A stretch of 64,000 nt of DNA. Source: Neoroseomonas eburnea (GTDB taxonomy: Bacteria > Pseudomonadota > Alphaproteobacteria > Acetobacterales > Acetobacteraceae). A program made the position numbers and the translations under genes. Below are positions 1,701 through 26,138 of this stretch, in pieces. Where the stretch lies: the NCBI RefSeq assembly GCF_018129005.1, contig NZ_JAAEDL010000002.1, positions 141,897 to 205,896 of the forward strand, written 5' to 3'. Each line of letters opens with the position of its first letter. The stretch's first letter is position 1. Below the pieces are notes generated by a model. The model ran no database searches and had not been told where the DNA came from. It saw only the letters and a program-made list of their open reading frames with translations.

Positions 1701-2585
1701 TCAGCCGGCGATCGCGTAGACCGTGTAGGACCCCCGGGCGCCTTCCTTGTTCGGCCCGACCTGCCGGACCCGCTCCAGCACCGTGACCTCGATGCCCTTC
1801 TTCTTCAGCCCGGCGAAGAACCCGCGCACCGTGTGCTGCGCCCAGCCGGTCGCTTCGGCGACCTGCGCCACCGTCGCCCCCTCGGGGCGGCGCAGTAGGG
1901 CGAGCACCGCCTCCTGCTTGGTACCCTCGCGCCGCTTGCGCGGTGCGCCGGGCTCCCGCGGGGCGCGGGCCGGCTTCGTGGCCAGGGCGGCGCGCAGCGC
2001 GTCGATGGCGGTGGGCAGATCGGTGCGCATGTTCGCGTCGTCATCCCAGGCGTCCAGGATCCGCTGGGCGGCGGCGCGCAGGGTGGGGCTCGGCGTCGCG
2101 CGCGGTGTGGCCAGCGCCTGTTCCAGCAGGACGACTTCCTCCGCCAGGGACGGGGCCTGGGCGGGTTCGGTCGGCGCGGCGGGGGTATCCTGCGTGGCGC
2201 CGTCCTCTCCGCCCGTGGGCGCCGTGTCGCCAACCGCGGCCGGCTCATCGTTATCGTCCCCGTCGTTCAGGCGGAGATCCACCCCATTGCGCTCATCCCG
2301 CGGGCGGGTGTCCTCCATTTCCTCCACCTCGCCGTCCGGCGCGACGCCGATGGCGCGCAGTCCCGCGTCGGTGATGCGCAGCAGGCGCGTCCGCCCCTCG
2401 ATCTGCCAGGCGTCGCGCGCGGCGTAGGCGCTGGCGTGCTCGTCGCTGACCAGCCCTTGCTTGATCAGGGACTTCGCCACCGTCTGCCGCGCCGCGGCGG
2501 GGAGGCGCTCGGGCGGTACGGCGAGGTGGTCGTCGCGCTGGCTCGCCTGGCTGAGGATGATGCGCTGGGTGTCGGAGAGTTTCAT
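1701..2585 (-). CDS. DUF3489 family protein
   Basis: 294 aa from ATG 2585, preceded by AGGAG. A longer frame reaches 2651 but its first 22 residues look non-coding. The N-terminal third looks like a helix-turn-helix or DNA-binding region (MKLSDTQRIILSQASQRDD). The centre is acidic and disordered (residues about 105-170). The C-terminal 70 residues match the DUF3489 pattern (TKQEAVLALLRRPEGATV followed by a winged-helix-like segment ending in YTVYAI). Members are small DNA-binding-like proteins often found on prophages and mobile elements. It runs opposite to the structural genes, so it may be an accessory or regulatory phage gene. Confidence 0.75.
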   Translation of the reverse strand: MKLSDTQRIILSQASQRDDHLAVPPERLPAAARQTVAKSLIKQGLVSDEHASAYAARDAWQIEGRTRLLRITDAGLRAIGVAPDGEVEEMEDTRPRDERNGVDLRLNDGDDNDEPAAVGDTAPTGGEDGATQDTPAAPTEPAQAPSLAEEVVLLEQALATPRATPSPTLRAAAQRILDAWDDDANMRTDLPTAIDALRAALATKPARAPREPGAPRKRREGTKQEAVLALLRRPEGATVAQVAEATGWAQHTVRGFFAGLKKKGIEVTVLERVRQVGPNKEGARGSYTVYAIAG

Positions 2586-2681
2586 CGTCGGGCTCCTGGT
2601 TCGGCACCCGAGGATCCGGGTGCTACCAGCCCGAGCCCCGCCGGGGATCACCCGGTCGGGGCGGTGCGGGAGTGATCCGCG

Positions 2682-2906
2682 TTAGCGGGCATATTCGCCC
2701 CGGCGGAAATACTGGTCCGCGATGTCCTTCAGCTTCGCGGTGGCGTCGGTGAGCCAGGCGGCTTCGCCCCAGAGCACCGCGTTGGGGTCTGCCCCAAAGT
2801 GATCCGCGCTGGCCTGCTGCAGTTCGGCGAGCAATTCGTCGAACTCGGCCTTCTTCATCAGGAAGGCCTCGAGGCTGTTGAGCTGGTTGGCTTCGCGCTT
2901 GGTCAT
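2682..2906 (-). CDS. Small phage protein of unknown function
   Basis: 74 aa from ATG 2906, with a GGAG motif upstream; a longer in-frame start at 2984 lacks such a site. The sequence is helical (LEAFLMKKAEFDELLAEL) and ends in a basic tail. It lies 96 bases upstream of the DUF3489 gene on the same strand and probably shares its transcript. No family is recognised. Confidence 0.55.
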   Translation of the reverse strand: MTKREANQLNSLEAFLMKKAEFDELLAELQQASADHFGADPNAVLWGEAAWLTDATAKLKDIADQYFRRGEYAR

Positions 2907-3071
2907 CGTGGTCTCCGTCCTCCGCATCGCGTGACGGACCATTCGCGCTGAGCCGCGCCCGAGCCAAGCGCATCTGCCGATCATGATGTTGCTGAATTCG
3001 GCGCCGATCGATCATTCCGTGACGCCGTGGCGTCGCGCATCAGGGAGCCGCGCATCGCGGCGCTGCACCCC

Positions 3072-3470
3072 ATGCCCCGCAAGCCCGGCCGCCCGGCCTA
3101 CACGCCCACCGAGAAGGACCGCGCCACCGTCAAGACGATGTCCGCCTTCGGCATCCCGGACTACGAGATCGCCCGCGTACTCGCGCTCGACCCGAAGACG
3201 TTGCGCAAGCACTTCTGGACCGAGCTCGAGGTCGGCCATGTCGAAGCGAACGCGAAGGTCGCCGCCTCCCTGTTCAAGAAGGCGACCGGTGATGGCCGCG
3301 AGGCGGTGGTGGCGGCGATCTTCTGGCTGAAGTGCCGCGCCGGCTGGCGTGAGCGCCCGGCCGCGGACGAACTCGGCAAGAAGGAGCAGCGGGCCCTGGA
3401 AGCCGAGACCGCCGAGCGCGGCACCTCCTGGGAGAGCCTGCTCGAACCGGCGAGCACGCGGCTGCAGTGA
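3072..3470 (+). CDS. Putative small terminase subunit (HTH protein)
   Basis: About 132 aa from ATG 3072; a GTG at 3027 would add 15 residues. A helix-turn-helix lies near the N-terminus (GIPDYEIARVLALDPKTLRKHF), followed by a helical region AAIFWLKCRAGWRERP typical of phage HTH proteins placed directly before large terminases. Its stop overlaps the GTG start of the large terminase. Role inferred: recognition of the packaging site on phage DNA. Identification rests on position and the HTH, not on a strong family signature. Confidence 0.7.
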   Translation: MPRKPGRPAYTPTEKDRATVKTMSAFGIPDYEIARVLALDPKTLRKHFWTELEVGHVEANAKVAASLFKKATGDGREAVVAAIFWLKCRAGWRERPAADELGKKEQRALEAETAERGTSWESLLEPASTRLQ

Positions 3471-5110
3471 CCGCCTGGTCGCTGGCCTGCCCAGATTGGG
3501 CGGCGCGCATCCAGGCGGGGCAGTCGCTGCTGCCGGAGATGCCGCTGCTGCTGCGCGCCGAGGCCGAGCGGGCGGTCACGATCTTCAACCGGCTGCGGTT
3601 GCCCGACGTGCCGGGCCGGCCGCCGCTATCCACCGCCGGCGGGGACTGGCAGCGCGACATCGTCCGCGCCCTGTTCGGCTCCTGGGACGGCACCGAGCGG
3701 CACATCCGCGAGATCTTCGCCCTCGTCCCCAAGAAGAACGCCAAGACCACCGCCGGGGCGGCGATCATGGTCACCGCCCTGCTGATGAACCGCCGCCCGC
3801 GGGCGGAGTTCATCATCGTCGCACCGACTCAGGACGTCTCCGACCTCGCCTACCGCCAGGCGGTCGGCATGATCGAGGCGGATCCGGTGCTGGCGGCGAA
3901 GTTCCATGTGCAGGAACACCTCAAGCGCATCACCTACCGGCCGACCAACGCCTTCCTGAAGGTGAAGTCCTTCGATCCGAAGATCGTGACGGGGACCAAG
4001 CCGGCCGGCATCCTGCTGGACGAGCTGCACGTCATCGCAGAGGCGCCGGACGCGGACCGGGTGATCGGCCAGATCCGCGGCGGGTTGATCTCGCAGCCCG
4101 AGGGCTTCCTGATCACCATCACCACACAGTCGGAGCGACCTCCGGCCGGCGTGTTCCGCGCCGAGCTGATGAAGGCCAGGAAGGTCAGGGACGGCGTGCT
4201 GCAGGCACCGATCCTGCCGGTGCTCTACGAGTTCCCGCCGGAGGTGGAATGGCGGGATCCGGCCAACTGGAAGATGGTCACGCCGAATGACGGGCGGTCG
4301 ATCACGGTCCAGCGGTTGGTCCCGGACTATCACGCGGCGGTGGAGGCGGGGGAGGAGGAGCTCCGGCGCTGGGCGTCGCAGCACCTCAACGTCGAGATTG
4401 GCCTGGCACTGCTGTCCGATGCCTGGGCTGGCGCGGAGCACTGGGAGCCGCAGGCGGATCCCGACCTGACCCTGAATCAGCTGCTCCGGCGCGCTGATGT
4501 TGTCACCGTCGGCATCGATGGCGGCGGGCTGGATGACTTGCTCGGCCTCTCCGTCATTGGCCGCGATGCCATCACGCGGGACTGGCTGCTGTGGTCGCGC
4601 GCCTGGGCGCATCCGATCGTATTGGAGCGCCGGAAGTCAGAAGCCGCCCGGATGCAGGACTTCGCCCGTGACGGCGATCTGCGCATCGTCGCGCGGCTCG
4701 GCGACGACGTGGAGGAGGTCGCCGACCTGGTCGCCGACATCGACCGCGCCGGCCTGTTGCACGCGGTCGGCCTCGATCCGGTCGGCATCGGCGGCATCGT
4801 CGACGCGCTGGCCGAGCGGCACATCACTGGCGACCGGGTGGTCGGCATCCCGCAGGGCTGGCGGATCAGCGGCGCGATCAAGACGCTGGAACGGAAACTG
4901 GCGGACGGCACGCTGCGGCATCCCGGCCAGGCGCTGATGGCGTGGTGCGTCGGCAATGCGCGCGTCGAGCCGCGCGGCAACGCCGTCACAATCACCAAGC
5001 AGGCAGCGGGCAAGGCGAAGATCGACCCGCTGGTGGCGGCGTTCAATGCGGCGGAGCTGATGTCGCGGAACCCGGAGGCGCGCTCGGCCCCTTCGATATT
5101 TCTTATATGA
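3467..5110 (+). CDS. Phage terminase large subunit
   Basis: 547 aa, GTG start overlapping the upstream stop by 4 bases. The ATPase half has a Walker A-like VPKKNAKTT (K93) and Walker B ILLDE (residues 182-186). The nuclease half starts near TVGIDGGG (about residue 348) and has a late acidic KIDPLVAAFNA. The protein packages phage DNA into proheads. Its final residues (after RSAP) are encoded by abruptly AT-rich DNA, whereas relatives carry a longer conserved tail, so an insertion at about 5096 seems to have replaced the native end. The catalytic residues are intact. Confidence 0.95.
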   Translation: MTAWSLACPDWAARIQAGQSLLPEMPLLLRAEAERAVTIFNRLRLPDVPGRPPLSTAGGDWQRDIVRALFGSWDGTERHIREIFALVPKKNAKTTAGAAIMVTALLMNRRPRAEFIIVAPTQDVSDLAYRQAVGMIEADPVLAAKFHVQEHLKRITYRPTNAFLKVKSFDPKIVTGTKPAGILLDELHVIAEAPDADRVIGQIRGGLISQPEGFLITITTQSERPPAGVFRAELMKARKVRDGVLQAPILPVLYEFPPEVEWRDPANWKMVTPNDGRSITVQRLVPDYHAAVEAGEEELRRWASQHLNVEIGLALLSDAWAGAEHWEPQADPDLTLNQLLRRADVVTVGIDGGGLDDLLGLSVIGRDAITRDWLLWSRAWAHPIVLERRKSEAARMQDFARDGDLRIVARLGDDVEEVADLVADIDRAGLLHAVGLDPVGIGGIVDALAERHITGDRVVGIPQGWRISGAIKTLERKLADGTLRHPGQALMAWCVGNARVEPRGNAVTITKQAAGKAKIDPLVAAFNAAELMSRNPEARSAPSIFLI

Positions 5111-5760
5111 GTTAAATTACAGCATTATGAGAGTATTATATGTACTATATCTATTTCTTTTTCTGTATATTATCCATTAATTCGCGAAATCCTATTGGAT
5201 AATCGCGATCTCTGCGAGGTGGGATATCTGCTCGCTTTTTGTCATTGAAGCGGGAAGGAGTCGAGTTTTCGTTTATTGATTTGGATCTGGCCACATCATG
5301 ACCGCTAACTTGATTATGCCTGGATTCACTATGAGTGATTTTCGACACTGACGCAGAAATTTTTTGCCTAATTCTAGTTCCTCTTGCCGCATAATCAATA
5401 TCTGATGAGAACAAAAAGCTCAATAGGAATGCCACAAGGCGCGGTGACCACTCCTGGCCACAGGCTGTAAACAATCTCTTCCGATTTAAGTTCTTGGCTA
5501 CCTCCGCTGGCTTGCGAATACGAATACGAGATAGTTGCTGAATATGCGGGCGCATCTTGTTCAGAAATTCAACCCTTTTCGTATCGCCAAACTGAAAATG
5601 GTCGATTTCTGATTTTGACAATGTCTGCTGCGTTGATTCGTAGAATTCCTGCTTCGAGATTTTCTCCTCGTCATTATAATACGTGCCGCGCTGCATAGAC
5701 TTCGATTTTGACTTCAACAACGATGAAATTTCCTTCTCGCTGTGCCGCCTGCGTCTTTGG
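5096..5760. other. AT-rich foreign insert between terminase and portal
   Basis: A stretch of roughly 650 bases that is strikingly AT-rich against a background near 70% GC. The left edge is sharp, inside the last codons of the terminase gene. The right edge is gradual, around 5745-5820, just before the portal gene. It contains one reverse-strand gene (5151-5780). No inverted repeats or target duplication are obvious at its edges. Base composition indicates horizontal transfer, and the location fits a phage accessory-gene (moron) site. Confidence 0.75.
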
Positions 5761-5780
5761 GTTGCCCCGAGACTTTTCAT
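5151..5780 (-). CDS. AT-rich orphan gene in prophage, unknown function
   Basis: About 209 aa if started at ATG 5780 (other possible starts at 5789 and 5696); stop TAG at 5151. The protein is strongly basic and Ser/Lys/Arg-rich, with a short hydrophobic patch near the middle (VAFLLSFLFSSD) and a very charged C-terminus ending in KKK. Codon use is unlike every neighbour. It runs against the late phage operon, so it probably has its own promoter in the AT-rich DNA. No family recognised. A defence, exclusion or lysogenic-conversion role would fit the location but is only inference. Confidence 0.6.
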   Translation of the reverse strand: MKSLGATQRRRRHSEKEISSLLKSKSKSMQRGTYYNDEEKISKQEFYESTQQTLSKSEIDHFQFGDTKRVEFLNKMRPHIQQLSRIRIRKPAEVAKNLNRKRLFTACGQEWSPRLVAFLLSFLFSSDIDYAARGTRIRQKISASVSKITHSESRHNQVSGHDVARSKSINENSTPSRFNDKKRADIPPRRDRDYPIGFRELMDNIQKKK

Positions 5781-5876
5781 CGATCCCACACAGGTCAGCG
5801 GAGCAAAGAAGACGATGGCAGTAAAGTGTTCTGCTGCAGTCTTGTCGCTACTCGCCCCTCAGGGTCGGCGACCGCA

Positions 5877-7310
5877 ATGCGGTGGTTAGCGCGCCTAACC
5901 CGGCGTGGTCATGACGAGAGCAAGGCCGTCACCTTCGCGCCGGGCTTCTGGGAGGCGCTGCGTCCGCCCGCGAAGTCAGGCGCCACGGTGAACGCCACCT
6001 CCGCCCTGGAATGCACCACGGCACTCGCCTGCGTGCAGGCCATCGCCTGCGGTGTGGCCATGCTGCCGCTCGACATCTATCGCCCTCGTGCGGGCGGCGG
6101 TCGCGACGTCGCGACGGACGAGCCGCTGTGGGGGTTCTTCGCCGGCCAGCCGAACGAATGGCAGACCTGGCCCGAGTGGATCGAGACCACGCTGATGCAC
6201 GCCGTGCTGTGCGGCGACGGCATCTCCTTCATCAACCGGCCGAACCCGCGCGGCCCAATCCGTGAATTGATCCCCCTCGTCCCCGGCAGCGTCTCCATCG
6301 AGCAGCGCCAGGGTTACGACCTCGTCTACCACCTGGTCCTCGCCGACGGCCGCAGTCTGACGGTCGGCCGGGAGCAGGTGTTCCATCTGCGCGCGCCGTC
6401 CTGGAACGCCTATTCCGGATTGGACGCCACCAAGCTGGCCCGCGAGGCGATCGGCCTCGCCTTGGCCACCGAGGAAGCGCACGCCCGGCTGCATGCGAAC
6501 GGCGCGCGGCCGGGGGGCATCCTGACCACCGAGCAGCGGCTGACCCGCGAGCAGGTCGATGAGCTGCGCGCCGCCTGGCAGCAGACCCAGGGCGGGCTGT
6601 CCAACGCCATGCGCACCGCGGTGCTGTCCTCCGGCCTGAAATGGGAGCCGATGGGCATGACCGGGGTGGATGCCCAGCACATCGAAACCCGGCGCTTCCA
6701 GATCGAGGAGATCTGCCGCGCCTTCGGGGTCTACCCGGCCATGGTCGGGCATTCCGACAAGGCCTCGACCTACGCCTCGGCGGAGCAGTTCTTCATCGCC
6801 AATGTCGTCTACTCGCTGGGGCGCTGGACCCGCCGCTTCGAGGAGCGGATCCGGGTCGACCTGATGACGCGGGAGGAACGGCAGCGCCGGCTCTACGCGA
6901 AATTCTCCCTGCAGGCGCTGATGCGCGGCGATGCCCGCACGCGGTCGGATTTCTACAGCGCCCTGATCACCCTCGGCGTGCTGACGCGCAACGAGGCCCG
7001 CGCGCTGGAGGAACTGAACCCGCTGCCCGGCCTCGACGAGCCGCTGCGGCCACTGAACCTGGCGACGCAGGCGGAGGCGGAGGCCGCGCTCCGTGCGAAG
7101 CAGGCACCTCCTGCTCCTTCGAATGATGTCGGCGCTGACGCCGAGGGCAAGGCAGCCGCTATCGCCGCCGTCGCGCGCGCCATCGGCGAGGAGGATCCCG
7201 CCCTGGAACAGAAAATCGGCCGGATCCTCTCCGCCGCGAATGAGGCCCGCATCCGCGGCGCCCGCGACGCGCTGGATACGGTCCTCTCCCAGCTGGAGAC
7301 CACGCCATGA
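5877..7310 (+). CDS. Phage portal protein (HK97 type)
   Basis: 477 aa from ATG 5877. The frame is open from 5742, but portal homology begins at MRWLARL and continues with SALECTTALACVQAIACGVAMLPLD, the usual N-terminal signature. The core has NRPNPRG, ETRRFQIEEICRAFGVYPAMVG and YSLGRWTRRFEERI. It forms the dodecameric ring at the head vertex through which DNA is packaged and the tail joins. The end overlaps the protease start (ATGA). It would normally follow the terminase directly but is separated here by the AT-rich insert. Confidence 0.95.
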   Translation: MRWLARLTRRGHDESKAVTFAPGFWEALRPPAKSGATVNATSALECTTALACVQAIACGVAMLPLDIYRPRAGGGRDVATDEPLWGFFAGQPNEWQTWPEWIETTLMHAVLCGDGISFINRPNPRGPIRELIPLVPGSVSIEQRQGYDLVYHLVLADGRSLTVGREQVFHLRAPSWNAYSGLDATKLAREAIGLALATEEAHARLHANGARPGGILTTEQRLTREQVDELRAAWQQTQGGLSNAMRTAVLSSGLKWEPMGMTGVDAQHIETRRFQIEEICRAFGVYPAMVGHSDKASTYASAEQFFIANVVYSLGRWTRRFEERIRVDLMTREERQRRLYAKFSLQALMRGDARTRSDFYSALITLGVLTRNEARALEELNPLPGLDEPLRPLNLATQAEAEAALRAKQAPPAPSNDVGADAEGKAAAIAAVARAIGEEDPALEQKIGRILSAANEARIRGARDALDTVLSQLETTP

Positions 7311-9820: not shown

Positions 9821-10053
9821 GCATGACGGCGGAGGGGCAGCGACGCATCCGCGCGCTGCGGGCGTTTTCCTATTCGCTGGACGGCGTGCGGCTGATCGCC
9901 GTTGCCGTCGGCGAGGAGGTCAGCCTGCGCGCAGGCACCGCGGCGGGGCTGCTGGCGGAAGGGTATGCCGAAGCAGTGGCGGAGGATGCCCCGCCGCGGT
10001 CGCTTCCACCGGCGCCGCGCCGTCGCCGCGCCACGCCCGACGATCAGGTGTGA
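9817..10053 (+). CDS. Small conserved phage protein
   Basis: 78 aa from GTG 9817, overlapping the previous stop; an ATG at 9823 is equally possible. It has a short beta-like segment (FSYSLDGVRLIAVAVGEEVSL), an AGLLAEGYAE motif, and a Pro/Arg-rich tail. Comparable small proteins sit between capsid and connector genes in related prophages, but their function is not known. Confidence 0.55.
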   Translation: MSMTAEGQRRIRALRAFSYSLDGVRLIAVAVGEEVSLRAGTAAGLLAEGYAEAVAEDAPPRSLPPAPRRRRATPDDQV

Positions 10054-10064
10054 GGAGGGAGCCC

Positions 10065-10661
10065 GTGCTGGAGATCCTCTCCCCGGCCGCCACCGGCGAC
10101 CTCACCACGCTCGCCACCGCCAAACGCGAACTCGGCGTCACGGATGCCGTGCAAGATGCCCGCATCGTCGATCTGATCCGCGAGGCGTCCGACCTGGTGG
10201 CGCAGTGGTGCAACCGGTCGGGCTTCGGGCGGGAGACGCTGCGGCAGACCGAACGCCTCGCATCCCCGGCCGACGCCCTCGTGCTGCAGCGTGACCTCGG
10301 CGTGCTCGTCGCCTCCGTCGCCGAGGACGGTGTCGCGCTGGCCGCCAGCGAATACGAGCGCGGCGGCGTGCTGCTCTATCGGCTGCGCGGCGATGTGCGC
10401 GTGCCCTGGACGGCGCGCACGGTGGTCGTGGAGTACCAGGCCGGCTTCGCCCTACCGGACGACGCACCGTCGGCGCTGGAGCGAGTCTGCCTCGACCTGC
10501 TCGCCGGCCTCTGGCACGGCCAGGGACGGGATCCGGCAGTGCGCAACGAGACCACCGAGGGCGTCGGCGCGGTCGGCTATTTCGAGCACCGCGGCGACAC
10601 GCTGCCCCTCGCGCCCGATCGGCTGGCCGCCCTCGAACGCTATCGGCGGTTCCACCTCTGA
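10065..10661 (+). CDS. Head-tail connector protein (gp6-like)
   Basis: 198 aa from GTG 10065, preceded by GAGGAGGG. The N-terminal helical repeat LATAKRELGVTDAVQDARI followed by IREASDLVAQWCN is the signature of HK97 gp6-like adaptor proteins. The C-terminal half is extended and beta-rich. It forms the ring beneath the portal. The stop overlaps the next start (TGATG). Confidence 0.85.
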   Translation: MLEILSPAATGDLTTLATAKRELGVTDAVQDARIVDLIREASDLVAQWCNRSGFGRETLRQTERLASPADALVLQRDLGVLVASVAEDGVALAASEYERGGVLLYRLRGDVRVPWTARTVVVEYQAGFALPDDAPSALERVCLDLLAGLWHGQGRDPAVRNETTEGVGAVGYFEHRGDTLPLAPDRLAALERYRRFHL

Positions 10662-10999
10662 TGGGCGCGCTGCGCGACGCCCGCCGTCGAGCGCTCGCGC
10701 GGCGCGGGCGGCCCATGACGCTGCGGCGTCTCGTGACCCCGCCGACCACCTACGCCACCGCCGCGGTGACCGGCTTCTCGGCCGACTACGCCCCCGACGA
10801 TCTCGCCCCGCCACTGCTCCAGGGCGACCGCCGCCTCGAGATCCTGCACGCCGATCTGGTCGCCGTCGGCTTTCCCTGGCCGCCCCGCGAGCCGGACGAG
10901 GTGTTGGACGGCGCGGAGAGCTTCACCGTGATCTTCGCCGCCCCAGTGTGGGAGGGCACAGAGCGCATCGGCTGGACCCTGGCAGTGCGCGGCGGCTGA
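10661..10999 (+). CDS. Head closure/head-tail joining protein
   Basis: 112 aa. Arg-rich N-terminus, then a beta-rich body with ATAAVTGFSADYAPDDLAPPL and ESFTVIFAAPVWEGTERI. The size, position between the gp6-like connector and the tail-completion gene, and overlapping start fit a head-closure (stopper) protein. No specific motif confirms it. Confidence 0.55.
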   Translation: MGALRDARRRALARRGRPMTLRRLVTPPTTYATAAVTGFSADYAPDDLAPPLLQGDRRLEILHADLVAVGFPWPPREPDEVLDGAESFTVIFAAPVWEGTERIGWTLAVRGG

Positions 11000-12211: not shown

Positions 12212-13465
12212 ATGCCCCTCGCCGAAGGCAGCGCGGCACGCTTCGCGTACAAATTCTACGCGGACGGTACCATGGTCACGAATGCGGAGGCGGACATCGC
12301 CACCGCGCCGGGATCGACCGGCGGCCGTATCCTCCGCCGCGTCAGCGCCGGGCTGAACTTGCGCAAGAACGCCACCCGCTCGGCCGAGATCCTGCCCTCG
12401 CGGCAGGTGCGCAGTTCCCGGCACACCTCGCGCCGGGTCGAGGGGCCGCTGGATGGCGAGTTCTCGCCCGGCAGCTACTTCGACTTCATCGAGGCGGCGC
12501 ATCGCGACACCGCGGCGCCGATCCTGCCCTCCGGCCTGACCGAAGTGCAGCTCACCAGCGTCGCCGCCGACAGCACCACCTCGAAGTTCACTTTCGGCGG
12601 GGGTGACCCGGTGGCGCTCGGCCTGCGAAAGGGGGCGATCATCCAGTTTGCGGGCCTGTCCGCGACCGGCAACAACGGCGTGCGCTTCCTGGTCACGGAC
12701 TTCGGGGGGACCTCCAACCGCGAGGTCAGCGTCTTCCCGGCGCCGACCACCATGGCGGCGGACACCAGCTTCACGCTGACCACGCCGGGGAAGTCGTCGA
12801 TCATCCCGGCCTCGGGCCATGTCCGCCGCAAGCTGGCGATCGAGCGCCACCACGAGGATCTTGACCGCGCTCGGCTCTACACGGAGCTGCGTGTCACCGG
12901 CTATCGCCTGGCCGTGCCGGCGGAGGGGAACAGCACCTTCGGCCTCAATGTCATGGGGCGGAACCGGCGCACGCTAACCGGCGCGGCGGCGCCCTACTTC
13001 ACCTCGCCGGCGGCAGCCACGACCACCGAGGTGTGCAACAGCCTCAACGGCATCCTGCGCATCGCTGGCAGCACGGTCGGCACTGTCACCGGGTTGAACC
13101 TCAACCTCGCGATGGCGGCGGACGCCCCGGCGGTGCTCGGTCAGGCTTTTCCGCCGGATGTGCTGCTCGGCACCGCCGACGTGACCGGCGACTTCACGGC
13201 CTTGGTCGACGACACCGACGCGATCAGCGCCGCCTTCGAGGAGGAACTCGAGGTTGAGCTGCTGTTCATGCTGACCGCCGGCGGCGCCACGGCCGATGCG
13301 GTGGCCTTCCACCTGCCGCGGCTCAAGCTGAACGGCGACGAGGAGAACGTGCAGGGCGAGGGCTCGCAGACCATGAACGTGCCGTTCCAGGCGCTGGAAT
13401 ACCTCGGCAGCGCGGCCGGCATGACCGGGACTACGCTGCGCTGCACGGATACGGCCGCGGTGTGA
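12212..13465 (+). CDS. Major tail tube protein
   Basis: 417 aa with ATG 12212. Starts AARFAYKFYADGTM, then GLNLRKNATRSAEI and GPLDGEFSPGSYFDF as in long tail-tube proteins of alphaproteobacterial siphophages. The C-terminal half repeats beta-rich segments (GTVTGLNLNLAMAADAPAV, and DAVAFHLPRLKLNGDEENVQ), which could be a second tube or Ig-like domain. It polymerises around the tape measure. Confidence 0.85.
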   Translation: MPLAEGSAARFAYKFYADGTMVTNAEADIATAPGSTGGRILRRVSAGLNLRKNATRSAEILPSRQVRSSRHTSRRVEGPLDGEFSPGSYFDFIEAAHRDTAAPILPSGLTEVQLTSVAADSTTSKFTFGGGDPVALGLRKGAIIQFAGLSATGNNGVRFLVTDFGGTSNREVSVFPAPTTMAADTSFTLTTPGKSSIIPASGHVRRKLAIERHHEDLDRARLYTELRVTGYRLAVPAEGNSTFGLNVMGRNRRTLTGAAAPYFTSPAAATTTEVCNSLNGILRIAGSTVGTVTGLNLNLAMAADAPAVLGQAFPPDVLLGTADVTGDFTALVDDTDAISAAFEEELEVELLFMLTAGGATADAVAFHLPRLKLNGDEENVQGEGSQTMNVPFQALEYLGSAAGMTGTTLRCTDTAAV

Positions 13466-13483
13466 GCCGCAGTTCGACGCTCG

Positions 13484-13744
13484 CTACCTGCGCCAGCCGA
13501 GCTTCTTTTCGATGTCCAGCGTGCCGCCGCGGCTGATCAGCGTGTCGGCCAGCCCATCGATGACGCCCCATTCCCATTCGTCGCCGCGGGCTGTCCCCAA
13601 GCGCAGACGCAGCAGCGTCTCGACGCGCTTCCACGTCCAAGTATCGGTCTCGGAGCGTGCCGCGTGATGCCCCTGGACATACTGCGTGCCGCTGCGGAGC
13701 GCATAGGGGATTCGCGGCTGCGGCGTTCGAGCATCGCGTGGCAT
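13484..13744 (-). CDS. Small reverse-strand gene in the tail module, unknown
   Basis: 86 aa from ATG 13744, preceded by GAGAGG; a longer start at 13780 is possible. The protein is Arg/Trp-rich (ETDTWTWKRVETLLRLRL, then GDEWEWGVIDGLADTL). It occupies an otherwise unexplained gap of about 380 bases between tail tube and chaperone and is transcribed against the operon, which suggests an accessory gene. No family recognised. Confidence 0.5.
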   Translation of the reverse strand: MPRDARTPQPRIPYALRSGTQYVQGHHAARSETDTWTWKRVETLLRLRLGTARGDEWEWGVIDGLADTLISRGGTLDIEKKLGWRR

Positions 13745-13844
13745 CTCGATCCTCTCCTTCAGCACGCAAAGGTCGCGCACTCGTCGCTGCGCTGATCTGC
13801 CAGCGCGTCTCCATCAGATCAATCTTGAACTTCAGGAGTCCACG

Positions 13845-14297
13845 ATGCCCGCTATCTTCGACACCCTGGCGCTGCCGACCGACCGTAGCGCCAAGCTCAT
13901 GCTCATCCACCCGGTGACGCGCGCGCCGCTCACCGACGAGGCCGGCGAGCAGGGCTGGATCGAGCTCTATTCCTGGGAGAGCGAGCAGGCCCAGGCGCAT
14001 CGCCTCGCGCGTGACAACGCGCAGCGCAAGCTCGGCCGAGAGTTCACCGCCGAGGAGGAATGGGAGGATATGGGCCAGATGCTGGCCCGGCTGACCAAGG
14101 CCTGGCACCTCGTCGGCCTCGACGGCCGCGCCATCGCCGCGCCCTGCAGCTTCGATCTCGCCGCCGGCGCCTTCAACGCCACCGGGCTGCGCTGGCTGCG
14201 CAATGCGGCGATCGCCTTCCTCAACGTCAGCGGGAACTTCTTCCCTTTGGCTGGCTCGACGCCCTCCGCGCCCATGGCCGCCACCAATTCTGGCTGA
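13845..14297 (+). CDS. Tail assembly chaperone, short form (G-like)
   Basis: 150 aa, the non-shifted product. The body has AIFDTLALPTDRSAKLMLIH, a WIELYSWESEQAQ segment and a C-terminal LRWLRNAAIAFLNVSGNF. It sits between tail tube and tape measure, where siphophages encode the paired chaperones that hold the tape measure during tail assembly. The slippery heptamer near its end allows the long form. Confidence 0.8.
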   Translation: MPAIFDTLALPTDRSAKLMLIHPVTRAPLTDEAGEQGWIELYSWESEQAQAHRLARDNAQRKLGREFTAEEEWEDMGQMLARLTKAWHLVGLDGRAIAAPCSFDLAAGAFNATGLRWLRNAAIAFLNVSGNFFPLAGSTPSAPMAATNSG

Positions 14298-17600: not shown

Positions 17601-17985
17601 CGGCGTCGGCCTTGCCAAGGGCCTGGAAGGCGCCGCCGGCCTGGTCACCGCCGCCGCACCGCTGCTGCACGAGGGCGGCGTGGTCGGCGAGCCGGTGCGC
17701 CAGCACCGCGTGGTGCCACTCACCCTGTTCCACGGCGCACCACGCTTCCATCAGGGCGGCGGCTTCCTCACCCGCACCGAGTTCCCCGCCATCCTGGAAC
17801 TGGGCGAGCGGGTGCTGACCCGCCGGCAGCAGGCCGCGGTCGGCGCCGCCGTCGCCGATCGGCCACGTCCGATCATCCAGAACGTGACGATCCAGACGCC
17901 CGACGCCGGCTCCTTCCGGCAGAGCCGCGGCCAGTTGCTGGCCGAGCTCTCGCGCTCCGTCGCGCGCAGCAACCGCCATCGGTGA
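14644..17985 (+). CDS. Tail tape measure protein with transglycosylase domain
   Basis: 1113 aa, overlapping the chaperone stop. Helical, coiled-coil-rich with LDASGYVAGARQVEGAN at the start and an Ala/Gly hydrophobic stretch near residues 170-205. Around residues 455-570 is an inserted soluble lytic transglycosylase (SLT) domain: LLERVQRAEGI with the likely catalytic Glu, ARGPMQVMPGTFEELA, and ALADYNAGPGRVD. A Pro/Ala linker follows, then more coiled coil and a Gly-rich C-terminus. It sets tail length, and the SLT domain probably digests peptidoglycan during DNA entry. Confidence 0.95.
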   Translation: MSGAMGGVELLSIIRSSLDASGYVAGARQVEGANDRLRASGDKVAGSQERITRGMDQTARQVAQLAQRTNPAIKATVELVDAEAKLDRALKLGLISLDDHARLLVPLQQRHQAATAAANQTANAFGVTARQAQQLAPQINDVITSLLGGASAFQVLTQQGGQITQAMGGVGNTFRAIGGLFTPVRVGVLAVGGALVGTFAAYEGTERRVARLRNELRGYAADYETLARNLERRAREQSLLTPGAGRSEVRTAQARIAQVVRPEDRENLERYVALALDLSRTLDKDLSAAAERVARALRRPEEVARELAEQGVRGFDEQFRRHIELMVRAGDASGAAAQVIARLTSVVQGATNGGTAFERAINNVEKSLAGLWNRITDGLTRAGGPFIEWLARSERNSRFLVEQGGLAVLQALPGGAPVALGLRLQQMLGSTASGAQSTRPGPAADIAGLLEEAARVSGVDRALLERVQRAEGIRNPDGSWRISTAGARGPMQVMPGTFEELARRYGIQGGIDDPRANMLAGALYLRERLQTRGDVALALADYNAGPGRVDRVLGGQAELPNETARYVRGIRSGYAGSGITGPVQPVTPAPTAPPVPAAGAAANPQPASVTGPPTPTPEQRFYDSALSEVRRRGTPTGDVAELTRDLERFQRAQRQAAPDSAEYREFGDAIEQIRARITGTERPIEQFIRGQREAARIAGTSEGAARELAQAMQGLEEASRAQGRDPTVEERAAVREAVLARAAGQYRDLTANVDRQIEAEGRLNEAMGRGAGAMQEAEARAKALEDVRRAGLAGTEQEAAAVAELTGRYLRLARAQADRITAASLEEQRRQIELIRAEAGTIGLGERDRAEAIAAIRARAELERRSPGSSETDTGRQYVANAVDIARAQDDVRVLKEIEGYGRETAGVLVSGFRAIAFEGRRASDVLRDMERALLDLGTRALLLKPLEDALGRLASSAFGGASGGGGGLGGLLNLIGLGGGGGEIAGVGLAKGLEGAAGLVTAAAPLLHEGGVVGEPVRQHRVVPLTLFHGAPRFHQGGGFLTRTEFPAILELGERVLTRRQQAAVGAAVADRPRPIIQNVTIQTPDAGSFRQSRGQLLAELSRSVARSNRHR

Positions 17986-25170: not shown

Positions 25171-25428
25171 ATGGACCTCACACCGACCCTGCTCTGGCAG
25201 GTGGTGACGACGCTCGCCATCGCGCCGCTAGCCTATTTCCTGAAGGCCTCGCTCGACCGCCTGCGGCAGATGGAGCTCTGCCTGTCGCGCACGCGCGAGC
25301 AGCTGGCGCGCGAATACGCCACCAAGGCCGACCTGCATGCCGATGTCGGCCGCGTCCTCGCCCGCCTCGACAAGCTCGACGGCAAGCTCGACCGGCTGCT
25401 CACGGCGCGGTTCGGGGGTGGCGAATGA
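25171..25428 (+). CDS. Small membrane protein of the lysis cassette
   Basis: 85 aa. One transmembrane segment near the N-terminus (LLWQVVTTLAIAPLAYFL), then a coiled coil (YATKADLHADVGRVLARLDKL). The stop overlaps the endolysin start. It could be a holin, antiholin or membrane anchor. The single helix with a long cytoplasmic coil is not decisive. Confidence 0.65.
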   Translation: MDLTPTLLWQVVTTLAIAPLAYFLKASLDRLRQMELCLSRTREQLAREYATKADLHADVGRVLARLDKLDGKLDRLLTARFGGGE

Positions 25429-26138
25429 CCCCCCGCCGCATCAGCGCCGAGGCGCTCGACCTGCTCAAGCGCTGGGAGGGCTGTGTCCTCCACGCCTATG
25501 ACGACGCCGATCCGGCGCGGCCGCCGCGGTTCATTCAGCCTGGCGATGCCATCCGCGGGACGCTGACCATCGGCTACGGGCACACCCGCACCGTGCGGCC
25601 TGGGCAGCGCATCACCGCGGCCGAGGCCGAGCGGCTGCTGCTGGAGGATCTGGCGCCAGTCGAGGCGGCGATCGCGCGCAGCGTCACGGTCCCGCTGACG
25701 GACGGCCAGCACGGCGCGCTGGTGTCGTTCGCGTTCAACCTGGGGCACAACACCGCGGCGGGGAAGCCGCTGGCCAACATCGCGGCGACGCTGAACCGCG
25801 GAGACTACGACGGCGCGATCCGGCGCATGGGGCTCTACGTGAAGCAGCGGCAGCATGGCCGCCTGGTCACCGTGCCGGGGCTGGTGAACCGTCGCGCCGC
25901 CGAGGCCGGGCTCTGGGCGCGCGGGGAGTTCGTCGCCAGCCGGCATGTCGCGCCGGCGGCGCCGCCCACCGAAGGGGCCGAGGCGGCGAAGCTGGGCGGC
26001 TATGCCGCGGCGGCGGCAACCGCGGCACCCGCGCTGCAGGCGTTGGCAGGGGTGCCGGTTTGGATCGGCGTGGCGTTGGTACTCGCCATCGCAGCAGTAG
26101 CCGTGTCCGTCCTGCTGCGGCGGGAGCGCGCGGCGTGA
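25425..26138 (+). CDS. Endolysin, GH24 lysozyme with C-terminal membrane helix
   Basis: 237 aa. T4-type lysozyme domain: LLKRWEGCVLHAYDD with catalytic Glu18 and likely Asp26/27, then TIGYGHT. It continues with LTDGQHGALVSFAFNLG and NRRAAEAGLW. Residues about 205-232 form a C-terminal transmembrane helix (VWIGVALVLAIAAVAV), unusual for a soluble endolysin and suggesting membrane tethering. It degrades peptidoglycan for host lysis. The start overlaps the upstream membrane-protein gene and the stop overlaps the i-spanin. Confidence 0.95.
   Translation: MTPRRISAEALDLLKRWEGCVLHAYDDADPARPPRFIQPGDAIRGTLTIGYGHTRTVRPGQRITAAEAERLLLEDLAPVEAAIARSVTVPLTDGQHGALVSFAFNLGHNTAAGKPLANIAATLNRGDYDGAIRRMGLYVKQRQHGRLVTVPGLVNRRAAEAGLWARGEFVASRHVAPAAPPTEGAEAAKLGGYAAAAATAAPALQALAGVPVWIGVALVLAIAAVAVSVLLRRERAA

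Follow-up and report, generated by a model that had tools for sequence, protein, structure and literature searches.

Morons and regions of genomic plasticity have been described for lambdoid and Mu-like phages (PMC4378225, PMC2629481), a defence hotspot lies between gpA and the portal gene gpQ in P2-like phages (PMC9122126), and Pseudomonas phage JBD26 carries Tab, a minus-strand moron by its terminase genes (PMC10884400). Here we analysed a 64,000-nucleotide stretch of Neoroseomonas eburnea DNA (contig NZ_JAAEDL010000002.1, positions 141,897 to 205,896; hereafter the window), in which a single reverse-strand open reading frame (ORF), the cargo ORF, lies between the genes for the terminase large subunit (TerL) and the portal protein of an HK97-type siphoprophage. 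The TerL–portal junction is a slot whose cargo differs from one close prophage to the next, and the cargo of the window is compositionally foreign. The locus resembles the morons of lambdoid and Mu-like phages in being a single coding unit of deviant base composition between adjacent phage genes, with contents that vary among relatives and several sites per genome. It differs from them in that no promoter or terminator of its own stood out in consensus scans, and in that several cargoes of sister prophages are host-type genes of large size, such as those for GMC oxidoreductase and TauE, as opposed to ORFs of 34–100 codons. Overall, the locus agrees with the definitions of a moron given in PMC4378225 and PMC2629481. 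The P2 hotspot is likewise a small, high-turnover locus that adjoins the portal gene and contains defence-like genes, AIPR-type ones among them; however, the phage type and the left neighbour are different, no cos site was located here, and the window protein is no known defence gene. Tab is also a small reverse-strand gene among late-operon terminase genes, yet it has 83 residues, whereas the cargo protein has 209 with a putative helix-turn-helix (HTH) core.

To delimit the foreign DNA, a two-state segmentation was run on positions 4501–6600, and a G+C (GC) profile and a 300-bp scan were computed across the whole 64 kb. The segmentation yielded one AT-rich block at 5092–5852 with a log-likelihood gain of 79. 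Its GC is 0.428, compared with 0.69–0.70 in TerL and portal and 0.708 (~71%) in the whole window, and all 300-bp intervals below 0.58 GC fall within it, so that the base composition unlike that of its neighbours, a feature of morons, is evident. By alignment, DNA homology to the sister prophages ends at 5087–5091 and restarts at 5912–5922 within the portal N-terminus. A search of the window for RNA families and tRNAs returned none. The abrupt change to AT-rich DNA at the terminase end, proposed earlier in a sequence-only reading of this stretch, is thereby borne out, as is its claim of one basic reverse-strand protein: the cargo ORF is the sole full-length reverse ORF in the block, and its 209-amino-acid (aa) product has an isoelectric point of 10.4 and a charge of +21.

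Comparison of the junction among related prophages shows how variable it is. Prophages of the same-genus genomes G005 (two prophages) and G015 have a TerL 95–97% identical to that of the window, and G010 provides a TerL tail piece only, at 85% identity. All five close prophages, the window counted, hold mutually unrelated cargo at the TerL–portal junction: a DUF6602/NucC-like protein, a TauE permease, an AIPR protein, a GNAT enzyme and the window protein (Table 1). Five of the six cargoes counted (window, four sisters and G042, described below) run antisense to the late genes. Across the wider family, nearly all loci in which a portal was found have a TerL–portal gap between about −36 and +63 bp, frequently an overlap of −3, indicating that the slot is empty there. 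The cargo thus sits between genes that are adjacent in related phages, another feature of morons, and the site is filled in the five close prophages. Large TerL–portal distances in part of the IMG/VR set were also considered as cargo but discarded, as the loci inspected have another gene order, with a protease/capsid-type gene before the portal. With five unrelated cargoes in close prophages and most distant relatives empty, the earlier proposal of an acquired accessory gene is well supported, and the unrelated cargo that it had named as a sign of an accessory hotspot is present at the same junction.

The position between two head genes might instead suggest a core structural or packaging gene that has diverged beyond recognition. 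However, the gene is antisense, TerL and portal adjoin without cargo in relatives, and no copy was found in the close sisters, in 395 genomes of the order, in the IMG/VR and phage records searched, or in a class-wide search outside the window's own genome. We therefore rejected this explanation, whose probability we regard as close to nil. No related prophage carries the AT-rich gene as a core gene, there being no other match in the 395 genomes, and there is no close homologue in which erosion of the frame would be visible.

One cargo bears on how the slot may be filled. In G042 (locus L006), a TonB_C cargo of 848 bp lies between ~200-bp direct repeats of the TerL tail plus portal start; the copies start near 3016 and 4065 in L006 and are 97.5% identical, and in close relatives of this prophage the slot is empty. 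The repeat suggests homology-based insertion in that single case; no such repeat was seen in the window junction. A detached TerL tail in G010:C32 was considered as a second repeat of this type and dropped, because the preceding bases resemble, by eye only, the end of an IS3-type element at the contig edge. The G042 repeat would also be consistent with a slot maintained by a selfish element, homing or otherwise, that cuts at the end of the terminase gene and has the cargo as its passenger. A prophage remnant in G015:C10 (L034, 4072–5336) could be read in the same way: here a forward TerL piece and a TerL tail in inverted orientation enclose a GIY-YIG protein (PF20815, E=2.4e-9). Nevertheless, the window protein has no nuclease match, the five close cargoes have no gene or end in common, and no repeat appears in the window junction alignment; we consider such an element very improbable.

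The cargo protein has no match in Pfam, NCBIfam or PADLOC (the last at E<=0.1), and its best PHROG match is only E=0.099. Its close homologues are likewise missing from the 395 genomes of the order, from IMG/VR queried with the single sequence and from phage records. A profile search of IMG/VR returned one relative, at a contig edge, and distant relatives were found on rhizobial plasmids and six Hyphomicrobiales contigs. On the Hyphomicrobiales contigs the match lies in the C-terminal part of 392–422-aa proteins, while a Rhizobium plasmid encodes a 220-aa relative with a layout like that of the cargo protein. The class-wide profile search recovered only the window's own genome, suggesting either that the family is rare or that the first-look filter missed members. 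In Rhizobium altiplani (L151), a relative of the cargo lies ~1.1 kb from an ORF that looks, by eye, like the 213-aa protein found as slot cargo in G015 and G005:C1 (coordinates 2393–3073 and 4209–5387).

What the cargo protein shares with the Hyphomicrobiales proteins is a core of ~75 residues, in which 20 of 86 alignment columns are invariant (alignment A4). Weak matches to Pfam HTH_62 ('recombinase-like helix-turn-helix'), the best at E=0.012, were obtained for five of the eight family members, and two of the eight match Recombinase; the curated HTH_62 cut-off is not reached (14.7 bits for P0002, compared with 27). AlphaFold predicts the full-length protein to be ordered only in parts of residues 43–125 and otherwise disordered. 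The core alone was modelled as an HTH with helices at 25–41, 47–56 and 69–80 (predicted local distance difference test 80.3, predicted template modelling score 0.68). A VIA alignment of the core to the DNA-binding domain of a serine recombinase gave a non-significant Z of 3.4 over 47 residues. No family stood out in the VIA-align 2 list, a whole-protein fold search gave no significant match, and a PDB sequence search with the cargo family profile gave no match. Taken together, the models and family matches weakly suggest that the core resembles the HTH of serine recombinases, albeit in a protein that, unlike these enzymes, has no recombinase catalytic domain. The sequence-only reading had recognised no domain; this agrees with the Pfam and NCBIfam results but is softened by the putative recombinase-like HTH.

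Based on these results, we consider it probable that the cargo gene is a recently acquired moron and, jointly, that its product binds DNA, a judgement that covers no particular role. A single accessory gene would have entered the TerL–portal junction in the orientation opposite to that of the late operon. Its 209-aa product may be a stand-alone DNA-binding protein, with a recombinase-like HTH and basic disordered arms, DNA binding being inferred from the HTH-like core. Its synthesis in the lysogen would not depend on the late operon, and the protein may act through DNA binding, whether to regulate genes of the host or the phage or to hinder the DNA of competing phages.

Several observations weigh against this reading. 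The slot is not empty in every other relative: G211 has a methyltransferase-like ORF between TerL and portal, and G356 a DUF3489-like reverse ORF after TerL, with no portal in the part of the locus that was read. The window protein has no match of its own to HTH_62 at E<=1 or to Recombinase, and the fold matches of the core are non-significant, the top Foldseek match being the serine recombinase Bxb1 at E=1.8. In consensus scans, promoter- and terminator-like sites occur near the shuffled background, and none of the promoter-like ones precedes the start of the cargo ORF; independent expression usually defines a moron. The codon-position GC of the cargo is nearly flat (43/40/47%), which could also mean a decaying frame. 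The flat profile, the lack of a clear promoter and the lack of a close homologue would all suit a non-functional passenger, that is, foreign DNA caught in the slot with its ORF decaying or unexpressed. This is unlikely, in our view: the intact 209-aa frame is longer than any ORF obtained when the mononucleotides of the insert were shuffled 5000 times (maximum 176 aa), and it retains the invariant core residues of the family.

Returning to the moron with a DNA-binding product, the matches of some sister cargo to defence models make a role in defence or exclusion possible. It is conceivable but doubtful that the gene serves specifically in superinfection exclusion or against phages, its prophage-expressed product binding incoming phage DNA or promoters and blocking infection. 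Defence models match two of the four sister cargoes at the TerL–portal slot, namely NucC and AbiU, and PD-Lambda-1 matches a sister cargo at another slot; Tab is a tested anti-phage gene (PMC10884400), and in P2 the hotspot that adjoins the portal gene contains defence genes (PMC9122126). On the other hand, the cargo protein has no PADLOC match, and TauE, GNAT, GMC oxidoreductase and APH are also among the sister cargo, which indicates that the slots are not defence-specific. The earlier suggestion that genes of this type often have anti-phage or exclusion functions therefore holds for the NucC-like, AIPR/AbiU and PD-Lambda-1-like sister cargo, but not for the metabolic and transport cargo or, as far as the defence models go, for the window protein.

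The flanking genes are TerL and portal, as had been proposed, by both Pfam and PHROGs. The TerL C-terminus, which the sequence-only reading took to be rewritten, is not: the window end, ARSAPSIFLI, is encoded by AT-rich codons yet aligns in frame and without gaps to the ends of the four sisters (ARSVPTIVII, ARSAPAVFVI, ARSAPAIFVV and ARSAPAVFVI), and the junction alignment rules out a rewritten tail. What had been overlooked is that the unalignable segment runs from the TerL end into the first ~14 portal codons, leaving a portal N-terminus unlike that of the sisters. Directly 5' of the portal start, all five prophages (the window and L027, L028, L029 and L033) have an ORF of 19–24 codons. In the four sisters it terminates in TGATG on the portal start, and in the window it overlaps this start, with its end at 5889. 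Where relatives have an empty slot, it is TerL that overlaps the portal gene, and the mini-ORF may substitute for the lost TerL–portal translational coupling.

Table 1. Features of the TerL–portal junction in the window, and cargo at the same junction in the four sister prophages
Feature	Coordinates	Strand	Evidence or description
Foreign AT-rich block	5092..5852	.	segmentation, window-wide scan, GC profile
Cargo ORF	5151..5780	-	209 aa from ATG 5780; 212 aa from GTG 5789
Core-coding region, modelled helix-turn-helix	5391..5648	-	residues 45-130 of 209-aa form; alignment and AlphaFold
TerL, left flank, natural C-terminus kept	3467..5110	+	Pfam TerL_ATPase/TerL_nuclease; phrog_9 6.7e-111; tail alignment
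Portal protein, right flank	5877..7310	+	PF04860 3.4e-84; junction alignment
24-codon mini-ORF overlapping portal start	5815..5889	+	ORF comparison; role a guess
G005:C1 cargo			277-aa DUF6602 protein; PADLOC NucC 4.5e-18 and PD-DExK matches
G005:C334 cargo			TauE permease
G015:C3 cargo			AIPR protein; AbiU match 7.6e-22
G010:C32 cargo			GNAT enzyme

The TerL–portal junction is not the only variable site of this prophage, which also encodes a serine recombinase (Pfam Resolvase), upstream of the window, and a phage lysozyme, at 25425–26138. The first ~26 kb of the window align to G015:C3, G005:C1 and G005:C334 at 85–92% identity, interrupted at few junctions. Alignment breaks occur at ~1343–1701, 5091–5922, 9971–10066, 10630–10678, 13465–13845 and 17850–17980, not all of them in each sister. 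At the other junctions the sisters carry DUF1810, T5orf172 (the PD-Lambda-1 match in PADLOC), APH with a CAAX-type protease, a GMC oxidoreductase, a 632-aa reverse protein, the 213-aa protein, which is cysteine-rich, and unclassified proteins. Up to five further late-operon junctions thus vary in cargo as the TerL–portal junction does. At the major-tail slot of the window there is a 98-aa reverse ORF without a Pfam match (13484–13780), which may be the window's own cargo there. Upstream of TerS, the window has a reverse DUF3489 gene (1701–2651), and the similar-looking reverse ORF after TerL in G356 lies at 2843–3823 of L156, as if the gene moved between slots.

The cargo gene is a further example of an already known kind of accessory-gene slot content. 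It is quite improbable that stand-alone recombinase-type HTH proteins form an undescribed class of prophage DNA-binding exclusion or regulatory factors, housed here in one of the late-operon slots of an uncharacterised phage lineage in which host-type cargo is exchanged at five or more junctions. No published description of a multi-slot late-operon arrangement in this siphoprophage lineage was found in the literature searched; the comparison documents such an arrangement, with cargo that includes NucC-like, AIPR/AbiU and PD-Lambda-1-like genes. Slots of this kind are a good hunting ground for new genes of defence or lysogenic conversion, and what the TerL–portal slot holds, a small, probable DNA-binding protein, is directly testable.
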